Shown here piece after piece: positions 70-4,309 of a stretch of 42,239 bases of DNA; positions within the stretch are counted from its first letter, which is position 1, and each line of letters begins with the position of its first letter. The notes below the pieces were generated by a model. It was not told where the DNA came from. It worked only from the letters and a program-made list of their open reading frames with translations, and ran no database searches. The DNA is from Pacificibacter marinus. Its GTDB lineage: Bacteria; Pseudomonadota; Alphaproteobacteria; Rhodobacterales; Rhodobacteraceae. Location of the stretch: contig NZ_JAHKPU010000042.1 in assembly GCF_018860505.1 (NCBI RefSeq), forward strand, positions 1 to 42,239, in the 5' to 3' direction. Made by a program: the position numbers and the translations under genes.

Positions 70-1092
70 TTAGTGTCGAGATGCAGCCGCGTTGTGGACC
101 ACGGTCTCCCCCCCAGCCATGCCCTGTTCAAACATATTGGCGCAGGCACGCCCTTGGTGTTTCGAAGCATACAGCGCCCTGTCCGCATCTTGCATCATTT
201 GGTCTGGATCAATTGCCTCATAGAAATCCGTTGTGGTGATTCCGATAGATCCCGAAATACGGCACACCGTATCGCCAAAAGGCACAGGCACTTGCAACTG
301 GCTGATGATCCGTTTGGCGACCTTCAGCAAGCGGTCCGCCTCTGTCATTTTGTGTAAAATGAGAATGAATTCATCCCCCCCCACACGCGCCACCATATCA
401 TCGCCACGCGTTTCTTGGACAAGAATCTTGGCGACCTTTTGCAGCACCGCATCCCCCGCTGCGTGCCCCCAAGTATCATTGACGTCTTTGAAGTAATCCA
501 AATCAAGATGCATCAATGCAAAAGGAAAGGCCCCACGGATCATTCGATCCAGCACATGATCCATCGCACGGCGGTTTTTAAGCCCTGTGAGCGTATCGGT
601 GAATGCCTGCTCTTCAGCGGCCACTTTGGCCCCTTGCAGGCGCATGTTAAGCTGTTTTGTTTCTTCCAAGACCGCGGATTTTGCCTCAACAAGATAAAGC
701 ATTTCAACAGCCAAATCCGTGGCCGCGAAGTCACCAGCTGTCAGACGATACGCGCGTACGGAATCGACAACAGATATGCCAAACGACAGGTTGAGCAACA
801 ATCCATCACAGCCCGCCACCGGTGTCGCCACGCCTTTAAGAGTCGTAGGCACGCCGTCCTTAAAGGTGAGGTAAAGCTTTTTATCCGTTGGCAGAAGGCG
901 ATCGCCTTTTTGACGCCCGTCATCACGCAATTCGAAAACATCAAAAACAGTTTTTTTCAAGAAAGCCGTTTCACTGCGTAGCTTGCACAACGTCGGCCCC
1001 ACGCCGCAGATCACGCCAGCCGCGTCCAAAATCAGATGCATAGGCATCAACAGATCAAGAGAGGGTTTATCAAAATTGACTACATGCATCAT
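70..1092 (-). CDS. Diguanylate cyclase with HNOBA-like sensor domain (H-NOX partner)
   Basis: A 340-residue GGDEF protein expected to make c-di-GMP from two GTP in the cytoplasm. Residues about 5-125 resemble the haem-NO-binding-associated (HNOBA) domain, ending in the pattern LLLNLSFG followed by DFAATDLAVE. Residues 130-165 look like a coiled coil, and the GGDEF domain covers about 165-330. The active-site motif GGDEF is intact at 238-242, and an RxxD inhibitory site (RGDD, 229-232) lies the usual five residues upstream, so product inhibition is likely. No membrane segment is visible. The start lies 3 bp after the stop of the H-NOX-like gene, so the two are almost surely co-translated and form a sensor-cyclase pair. 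In known bacterial H-NOX systems the H-NOX protein binds its partner cyclase and changes its activity. That this happens here is inferred. Confidence 0.9.
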   Translation of the reverse strand: MMHVVNFDKPSLDLLMPMHLILDAAGVICGVGPTLCKLRSETAFLKKTVFDVFELRDDGRQKGDRLLPTDKKLYLTFKDGVPTTLKGVATPVAGCDGLLLNLSFGISVVDSVRAYRLTAGDFAATDLAVEMLYLVEAKSAVLEETKQLNMRLQGAKVAAEEQAFTDTLTGLKNRRAMDHVLDRMIRGAFPFALMHLDLDYFKDVNDTWGHAAGDAVLQKVAKILVQETRGDDMVARVGGDEFILILHKMTEADRLLKVAKRIISQLQVPVPFGDTVCRISGSIGITTTDFYEAIDPDQMMQDADRALYASKHQGRACANMFEQGMAGGETVVHNAAASRH

Positions 1093-1095
1093 TTT

Positions 1096-1686
1096 TCAAA
1101 CCGCCTGTGCAGCAAGATCAAAACTGCGCCCCTCGGCAAAGGATTCTTCCAATAATTGAATATTGATGATTTCTTCACCTGAATCGCGCCACCCTTGGTG
1201 TTCCAAGAACACCAGCGCGCCGTAGTCATCCGCCATAGCGCGCATGACGCCCACCATCGCATAACCGAACCCAGGCATCGTATGCAGACAGGTTAAGCTA
1301 TGCGTCCCGTCAGGGTTTTCAAAAACTTCAAGTTTGGGCACTTCAAGATCTGGCAAAGCGAGGCGTGAGCGCCCTTCGATTTCATTGAGAGAGAACAAGA
1401 ATTCCCTATATTCATCCCCCCCAAATCGCAGCAGCCTGCGGATCGCTTCCACGTTGGGATGAGACACAAGATAGGTTCCGATGTCTTCCAGCATTGCGTC
1501 TACGGGCTTTGACAAATTGCGCGCAGCCGAGGCCAACAGTTTGATGGTGACATCGTCAGGATAATTCAACATGGCTTCGAAGTTATCGAAACCAAGGTCA
1601 GCTTGCTCGGCAACATCGGACCAAATCTGTGGCCCGTATGTGTCGCGAAGAAAACATTGAATTGCGCGATTTATCATCCCATGCAT
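1096..1686 (-). CDS. H-NOX-like (HNOB family) protein with altered haem pocket
   Basis: A 196-residue stand-alone H-NOX fold protein. The start MHGMINRAIQ and the central pattern IGTYLVSHPN...RRLLRFGG...FLFSLNEI are typical of the family. I chose the ATG at 1686, with an AGGG-like ribosome site upstream, over an in-frame TTG two codons earlier. In canonical H-NOX proteins a His after the LxxL segment (His102 in the Thermoanaerobacter protein) binds haem and a YxSxR motif binds its propionates. By eye the His position is Glu104 here, and the YxSxR region reads C-L-H-T-M (133-137). The protein may therefore use another ligand (His 2, 76, 129, 135, 163 and Cys 133 are available) or be haem-free. 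It sits directly upstream of its cyclase partner. The family call is firm; the ligand it senses is open. Confidence 0.85.
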   Translation of the reverse strand: MHGMINRAIQCFLRDTYGPQIWSDVAEQADLGFDNFEAMLNYPDDVTIKLLASAARNLSKPVDAMLEDIGTYLVSHPNVEAIRRLLRFGGDEYREFLFSLNEIEGRSRLALPDLEVPKLEVFENPDGTHSLTCLHTMPGFGYAMVGVMRAMADDYGALVFLEHQGWRDSGEEIINIQLLEESFAEGRSFDLAAQAV

Positions 1687-2932: not shown

Positions 2933-4309
2933 ATGGCAGGACGGATTCTCATCGTGGACAATGTCCCGACGAACCGCATTATTCTGAAAGTAAAGCTGTC
3001 ATCCGCCTTCTACGAGGTGATACAGGCGGCATCTGGCCACGACGCTGTGCTGTGCGCAGGCGAATGCCAGCCTGACATCATCATCCTTGATACTGATCTT
3101 GGGGATATGAGCGCCCATGACGCCTGTGCCCAATTGAAAGCCGGCCTAGCCACACGCCATATTCCGGTTCTAATCGCCACGCCCGCAGGCGATACCGAGG
3201 CCAAAATCGCGGCGCTCAAAGCGGGCGCGGACGAATTTTTGGCCAAACCGATTGACGAGTTGACATTGACTGCCCGCGTGCGCGCCCTCATGCGTGCGCG
3301 CGCGACCACAGATGAATTGCGCAGGCGTGACGAGACCGCGCGGTCTTTCGGTTTTGCCGAAGTGGCCTTTAATTTTGCAATACCCGGCAAAATAGCCCTT
3401 GTTGGGCGCACGGCGGAAGATGCGATGATTTGGCGTGCAGGATTGCGAGGCTTGGTCTCCGATGACATAGAAATCATCGCCGCCGATCACCTGCTGGAAA
3501 CCATCGCGGGGGGCAATGCCGCAGATATCTATGTGATTTCCAGCGACACATTTGATGACACAAGCGGGTTGCGTATGATCGCGGATATTCGCGCACGCCC
3601 GAACACCCGCTTTGCGGGGATCATTGTTGTGCATGGCCTGCAAAATCGCAAAGAAGCGGTCATGGCGCTTGATCTGGGAGCGAACGACATCATCACCCGC
3701 GGCGCAGACCCCGAAGAATTGGCCCTGCGTCTGCGGTTGCAAATGCGGCGCAAAAAAGAAGCCGATGCGCTGCGCACCTCAGTGGACGAAGGTCTGCGGT
3801 TGGCGATGATTGATCCGCTGACGGGGCTATACAATCGGCGCTACGCCCTGCCCCATATGACGCAAATTTCACAAGAATCGTCCAAATCAGGTCAAAATTT
3901 TGCGATCATGCTGATTGATTTGGACCGTTTCAAGACCATCAACGACACCTTTGGTCACTGCATTGGCGATGAGGTCTTGATCGAGGTGGCCAAACGGTTG
4001 CGCAACACCCTGCGCGGCATTGATTTGGTCGCACGCTTTGGTGGCGAAGAATTTTTGGTCTGTATGCCGATGACCACATTGGTCGATGCGCGCTCTGCCG
4101 CAGAACGCCTGCGCGCCGCGATTTGTGGCACGCCTGTCACGCAGACCGCGAACGGCACGCTTGTGTCGGTGTCAGCCTCGATCGGGCTGTCCATGGGCGG
4201 CGATACAAATGCGTCGATCGAGACGCTAATGGAGATATCGGATCGTGCGCTCTATGACGCAAAAGCCGAAGGTCGCAATCAAGTGACCCTCGGCTCTCAT
4301 GCTGCGTGA
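2933..4309 (+). CDS. pleD: PleD-type response regulator diguanylate cyclase (REC-REC-GGDEF)
   Basis: A 458-residue protein with the length and domain order of Caulobacter PleD: a receiver domain (about 1-125), a degenerate second receiver (about 155-285) and GGDEF (about 290-455). The phosphoacceptor is Asp53 in IIILDTDLGDM; the conserved Thr (LIAT) and Lys (AKPID) are present. The acidic pair that binds Mg2+ reads Asp9-Asn10 instead of Asp-Asp. The catalytic motif GGEEF is at 370-374 with the RxxD inhibitory site (RGID) at 361-364. Phosphorylation is expected to drive dimerisation and c-di-GMP synthesis, linked in Caulobacter to pole development. No divK lies next to it. The start has GAGGG four bases upstream. 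Confidence 0.93.
   Translation: MAGRILIVDNVPTNRIILKVKLSSAFYEVIQAASGHDAVLCAGECQPDIIILDTDLGDMSAHDACAQLKAGLATRHIPVLIATPAGDTEAKIAALKAGADEFLAKPIDELTLTARVRALMRARATTDELRRRDETARSFGFAEVAFNFAIPGKIALVGRTAEDAMIWRAGLRGLVSDDIEIIAADHLLETIAGGNAADIYVISSDTFDDTSGLRMIADIRARPNTRFAGIIVVHGLQNRKEAVMALDLGANDIITRGADPEELALRLRLQMRRKKEADALRTSVDEGLRLAMIDPLTGLYNRRYALPHMTQISQESSKSGQNFAIMLIDLDRFKTINDTFGHCIGDEVLIEVAKRLRNTLRGIDLVARFGGEEFLVCMPMTTLVDARSAAERLRAAICGTPVTQTANGTLVSVSASIGLSMGGDTNASIETLMEISDRALYDAKAEGRNQVTLGSHAA

Follow-up and report, generated by a model that had tools for sequence, protein, structure and literature searches.

A group 5 H-NOX-like protein of Pacificibacter marinus lacks the haem-ligating histidine and is kept beside a GGDEF cyclase

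A gene pair in a 42,239-nucleotide stretch of Pacificibacter marinus DNA (GCF_018860505.1, contig NZ_JAHKPU010000042.1, positions 1 to 42,239; hereafter the window) encodes an H-NOX-like protein of 196 aa (1096..1686) and a diguanylate cyclase of 340 aa (70..1092), both on the minus strand, on which all features of the two proteins described below also lie. The H-NOX-like protein lacks the proximal histidine by which haem-based H-NOX sensors hold their haem, and it belongs to a published family, group 5, in which this residue is mostly absent. From sequence comparison we lean towards the view that the group 5 fold gave up its His-ligated haem and persists as a regulatory subunit dedicated to the adjacent HNOBA-type GGDEF cyclase; this haem-independent subunit would probably act as an inhibitor of its cyclase.

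The H-NOX fold, which the original prediction had recognized in the 1096..1686 product, was borne out by the Pfam HNOB profile (E=5.3e-22, 78.9 bits against a cut-off of 25.5, residues 2-157 on profile positions 1-157 of 163) and by an AlphaFold2 (AF2) model (pLDDT 89.0, pTM 0.83), the top Foldseek match of which was Nostoc H-NOX (TM 0.79-0.86). A phmmer search of solved structures aligned residues 1-172 with Nostoc Alr2278 (4iae, E=9e-19), free of gaps around the haem site, and placed Glu104 (codon GAA, 1375..1377) opposite haem His105 of the Nostoc protein, just as had been proposed. The family alignments gave the same assignment, and relatives with near-identical local sequence, for example SLDDLHDRARLAV in L013 and L143, carry His in the column of Glu104; neither the Nostoc structure sequence nor the rhodobacterial homologues brought any His of the window protein to the ligand position. 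In the same alignments, residues 133-137 (1276..1290) read C-L-H-T-M where Nostoc has Y-Q-S-T-R, again as predicted, and the propionate-binding YxSxR motif is absent as well.

The 207 HNOB reading frames compared here came from loci L001-L206, and 171 of them were best matched by the profile of the window's clade; once the two fragments of L081, a broken clade H-NOX with an internal stop codon, had been removed, 169 clade rows remained, 158 of which are distinct. The sample is non-random, its loci being taken from the top of score-ranked lists, as the best matches listed, together with close relatives of the window; with family alignment A1, the named genomes yielded at least 593 stretches, at least 577 of them encoding relatives, and the best 80 were kept. 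At the ligand position the distinct clade rows have Pro (109), Glu (17), His (12), Gln (6), Arg (4), Asn (3) or Lys (2), with single occurrences of Val, Gly, Asp, Ser and Tyr, which makes 12 residue types overall. Because His is absent from 146 of these 158 members, its lack in the window protein is due neither to chance nor to sequencing error. One of the 158, L040, is canonical-looking (His, YxSxR) and sits on a long branch, and without it the count is 11 His in 157 rows. The canonical H-NOX, counted apart from the clade and from a PilZ-fused group (73 rows, L040 included), have His in 72 cases and Gln in one, a count made after seven partial or odd rows were removed (six with His, one with a gap at the site). 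L073, a protein of the canonical type, has YxSxR but carries Gln in place of the haem-ligating His.

On a tree of 132 rows, built by a quick method and with 66 of its 129 inner branches below 80, the ligand position requires at least nine changes between His and not-His and at least 29 when all residue states are considered. The His of L143 is nested within a Pro group, and poor resolution of the backbone makes losses and regains of His indistinguishable. Within the window's own sub-branch (8 tree rows, SH-aLRT 97) the position is occupied by Glu, Lys, Val or Gln; Glu is thus not a fixed replacement, and Glu104 was ruled out as a substitute ligand.

These alignments bear directly on whether haem is still bound, through His2, His76 (Nostoc 77) or no protein ligand at all, so that nitric oxide (NO) would still be sensed. 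Such retention would fit the presence of His2 in 139 of the 146 His-less rows, a place where the 73 canonical rows have Lys (55), Tyr (8), Leu (6), Gln (3) or Arg (1), as well as that of His at Nostoc position 77 in 112 of 146, and it would also fit Pro118 of Nostoc (Pro117 in the window protein), invariant in 158/158 clade rows. We take Pro118 to be a haem contact. However, the propionate motif has gone together with the ligand; His77 is absent from 34 of the 146 His-less rows and from the homologue in Paracoccus denitrificans; and His2 is about as common where the proximal His is kept (10/12), which means that it does not compensate for the loss. A residue comparison of the 146 His-less with the 12 His rows revealed no compensating ligand that arose with His loss. 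We accordingly regard retained haem as unlikely and did not adopt His2 or His76 as replacement ligands, and the suggestion in the original prediction that another residue might hold the haem found no support. In the same comparison Trp occupies the Ser place of YxSxR in 6/12 His rows and in 6/146 His-less rows (Fisher p=3.5e-5), but on the tree this comes down to one independent pair on the starred branches (nine on all branches), and no association is claimed.

The loss of the haem ligand is not decay, since the ratio of nonsynonymous to synonymous change (dN/dS) in nine close pairs was 0.012-0.054 for the H-NOX gene; that for the cyclase gene was 0.065-0.127, the H-NOX value being lower in every pair. 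Three canonical H-NOX pairs gave 0.058-0.10, and synonymous change was near saturation in three of the twelve H-NOX comparisons. The pair is held by strong selection, as had been argued from the window alone. That the sensor is degenerating is hardly credible: the ligand position is indeed highly variable and one clade copy, L081, is broken, but against this stand the dN/dS values, the intact motifs of the partner described below, and an HNOB gene of some kind in 296 of 394 sampled Rhodobacteraceae genomes. Counted without regard to kind, HNOB genes were also present in 32/61 near and far relatives, and in 18/385 genomes of the class and 103/398 of the phylum, two samples that partly include Rhodobacteraceae. 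In most Rhodobacteraceae genomes with a match there is a single HNOB place.

What selection maintains differs from the canonical protein. When constraint was compared column by column (130 clade vs 68 canonical rows, 166 columns, Nostoc numbering), S136 ranked first, Y134 sixth and H105 seventh among the losses, three positions that we take to be haem contacts. The eleven largest gains, given with the clade residue, were F89, G91, D69, R84, L159, S76, E68, A153, S100, D154 and G157, and the gains include the charged residues D69, R84, R88, D154 and D155. Three clade-specific segments stand out in the window protein. RRLLRFGG (residues 83-90, 1417..1440) is nearly constant, with R83 in 156/158 and both R87 and G90 in 158/158 rows, although model confidence is lower over residues 81-90 (mean pLDDT 76); RAMADDYG (residues 149-156, 1219..1242) emerged from the family alignments and the constraint comparison; and a C-terminal tail with GRxFxL (residues 180-196, 1099..1149) extends beyond the canonical end. 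The tail motif G[RNKQ]xFxL occurs in 150/158 clade rows vs 0/35 canonical rows, and the median tail length past window position 180 is 16 residues in the clade vs 0 in the 35 canonical rows. In the lone-chain model residues 185-188 and 192-196 have pLDDT below 50, a low confidence that would fit a peptide folding upon its partner.

The partner, identified by profile matches and a structural model, consists of an HNOBA-like N-terminus, a long helix and a GGDEF domain (E=4e-44). The stop codon of the H-NOX gene ends at 1096 and the ATG of the cyclase gene lies at 1092, leaving 3 bp between them (6 with an alternative ATG at 1089), which confirms the close coupling noted earlier, and the active site and I-site likewise proved intact. 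The active-site motif GGDEF (residues 238-242, 367..381) is present in 164/164 complete partners, and the RxxD of the I-site, RGDD in the window (residues 229-232, 397..408, five residues ahead of GGDEF), in 162/164; four incomplete frames were left out of this tally and the partner of L081 was counted once. Secondary structure of the model predicts a long signalling helix at residues 127-168 (589..714), within which L132, Y133, E136, A137, L148, L152, A155 and A159 are invariant in 71 cyclase rows. The HNOBA match of the window cyclase itself is below the cut-off (E=0.041, 13.8 bits against 23.4), and an HNOBA match at E<=0.1 was obtained for 66 of 71 homologous partners, the best at 2e-10. 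In 168 of 169 clade rows the H-NOX gene is followed, in the same orientation, by a homologous cyclase gene, the sole exception being a stretch cut 136 b past the H-NOX gene; the distance from the H-NOX stop to the predicted cyclase start ranges from -20 to +141 b (-8 to +60 in 161 of 168).

In ordinary H-NOX proteins, NO acts by breaking the Fe-His bond, with release of helix F and switching of the partner. With no such bond to break, the window protein would stay permanently in the released form; it could dock on the cyclase through the clade-specific surface formed by RRLLRFGG and RAMADDYG and through the GRxFxL tail, and once docked it would most likely hold the cyclase down. A comparable case is the H-NOX domain of the alpha subunit of soluble guanylate cyclase (sGC), which has the H-NOX fold, binds no haem and acts as a partner within a PAS/coiled-coil cyclase, although that domain is part of one polypeptide and is eukaryotic. 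No sGC PAS entry was found in the structure-match list of the cyclase model, which was filled by GGDEF matches; sGC beta chains stand at ranks 36, 37 and 41 of the Foldseek list for the cyclase (TM 0.31-0.32), from which we draw no inference. A test for H-NOX/cyclase covariation over 152 pairs (an effective number of 105) was taken as null, with a maximum z of 6.2 vs 5.0-6.1 in six pairing shuffles. The 300 b preceding the H-NOX gene contained no CtrA-type site TTAA-N7-TTAA in any of 155 stretches, against an expectation of 0.3 under single-base shuffling.

In another reading, some other small molecule has come to occupy the former haem cavity and is the true signal of the cyclase. The fold is kept, as are Pro118 and two glycines, G70 and G146, that are invariant in 158/158 clade rows; the latter are presumably the published hinge glycines. 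Selection tighter than that on the partner also suggests more than a passive scaffold. Yet no ligand is known, and the charged gains in constraint together with the flexible tail suggest partner binding instead, so we consider a new ligand improbable.

The loss itself is already in print at the family level, and the window protein belongs to the published group. A 2022 review found a very large 'group 5' of H-NOX proteins with the P. denitrificans protein as query, fewer than 10% of which keep the proximal His while most have Pro; it reports no conserved Cys in the group and asks how these proteins sense (PMC8738867). Our sample is much alike (12/158 His, 109/158 Pro), and the window protein shares with the group its homology to the P. 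denitrificans protein (38% identity, full length), the absent proximal His and the adjacent GGDEF gene; it differs in that its sub-branch has Glu (or Lys, Val, Gln) rather than Pro.

The P. denitrificans pair HnoX/DgcA (Pden_3719/3720) is the same gene pair, and its H-NOX, like that of R. sphaeroides, was noted by Kumar and Spiro in 2017 to be without the axial His (PMC5588039). Its hnoX mutant is partly biofilm-deficient and the dgcAB mutant overproduces biofilm, while NO acts also without H-NOX (PMC5588039). The deletion phenotype means that a His-less H-NOX acts in vivo, and because it opposes the phenotype of the cyclase double mutant it backs the view that such a protein regulates its cyclase. 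Kumar and Spiro suggest that H-NOX inhibits DgcA (PMC5588039), and a 2025 P. denitrificans paper repeats the biofilm defect and states that cyclic di-GMP (c-di-GMP) could not be measured (PMC12582929). The Paracoccus protein (strain HAMBI_2443, L269) differs from that of the window in having Pro at the site and neither Cys133 nor His76.

This difference also weighs on redox sensing through Cys133, a possibility raised in the original prediction and published for a haem-free H-NOX of V. cholerae (PMC8738867). Of the 21 rows in the window's sub-branch, 20 have Cys here, and any such role would be confined to that sub-branch; across the clade Cys is found in 112 of 146 His-less rows (C134 in Nostoc numbering), and the Paracoccus protein, which lacks it, has a deletion phenotype nonetheless. 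Moreover, the V. cholerae system needs three conserved Cys on zinc, whereas the window protein holds two (C11 and C133); the Cys count runs from 0 to 5 in the 146 His-less rows, 34 of which have one Cys or none in total, in keeping with the review's finding for group 5. Redox sensing by Cys133 thus seems very unlikely.

A different case is L067, which we take, partly on gene position, to be the Dinoroseobacter shibae Hnox homologue. It is of the same family (40% identity) and has the same gene pair, but its ligand position still has the His, and the Arg of YxSxR is likewise retained. In reviews, D. shibae Hnox is listed among haem NO sensors, with Dgc1 as the cyclase it inhibits (PMC8846402, PMC7232146), and it is the NO-bound form that is reported to do so (PMC8846402, PMC7232146, PMC6473078). 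As it keeps the His, D. shibae Hnox cannot stand for the His-less majority. Six H-NOX terms were sought in the main text of an alphaproteobacterial c-di-GMP gene survey and none were found (PMC9756655).

Members of the family carry annotations as haem NO-binding proteins and have been taken as NO sensors, a reading that is unsafe because 146 of 158 members in this sample lack the haem-ligating His; the one system listed in reviews as an NO-controlled haem pair, that of D. shibae, sits in the His-keeping minority. We see it as an even call whether the main Rhodobacteraceae H-NOX family consists mostly of proteins other than gas sensors, that is, of haem-free cyclase subunits, in an NO-mimicking frozen form or with another ligand in the old cavity, NO sensing being left to the few His-keeping lineages. 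How His-less H-NOX proteins signal, the question posed in print in 2022, is sharpened here rather than answered. The present work adds how D. shibae differs from the other members, a map of constraint, dN/dS values, the finding that no ligand compensates for the lost His, the tail motif and the sub-branch with Glu, Lys, Val and Gln, points not found in the searched parts of the open-licence literature. Across the clade, moreover, this one position runs through His, Pro, Glu, Lys, Gln and more while the adjacent cyclase stays constant, a natural series in which the loss of haem sensing and the retention of cyclase control could be compared side by side.

Other H-NOX types were met in the same survey. 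The second H-NOX of the window's genome, L001, has His and YxSxR and shares the HNOB domain with the window protein (22% identity over 125 residues), but it is a canonical proteobacterial H-NOX with a histidine kinase, and the frame that follows it resembles, by eye, a hybrid histidine kinase. In a Rhodobacteraceae genome, the canonical-looking, Nostoc-like H-NOX of L040 (L040:1498-2046) adjoins an HNOBA-GGDEF-EAL protein (L040:2043-3485), and this arrangement may represent the ancestral H-NOX/cyclase pair. The PilZ-fused HNOB group (~420 aa, C-terminal PilZ in 11/11 scanned; L249, L251, L253, L254, L255, L257, L258, L259, L261, L262 and L265) comes from other families of the phylum and has Leu, Phe, Val or Trp for the axial His in 7/11 and YxSxR in 9/11; on sequence comparison it is a separate ligand loss, in a c-di-GMP-receptor context. 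L266, outside the clade, has HNOB matches in two separate frames. In the window, about 1.2 kb from the H-NOX/cyclase pair, a PleD-like protein with two receiver-domain stretches and a GGDEF domain is encoded on the plus strand (2933-4309), and a HAD hydrolase gene and a DUF3572 gene lie in between.
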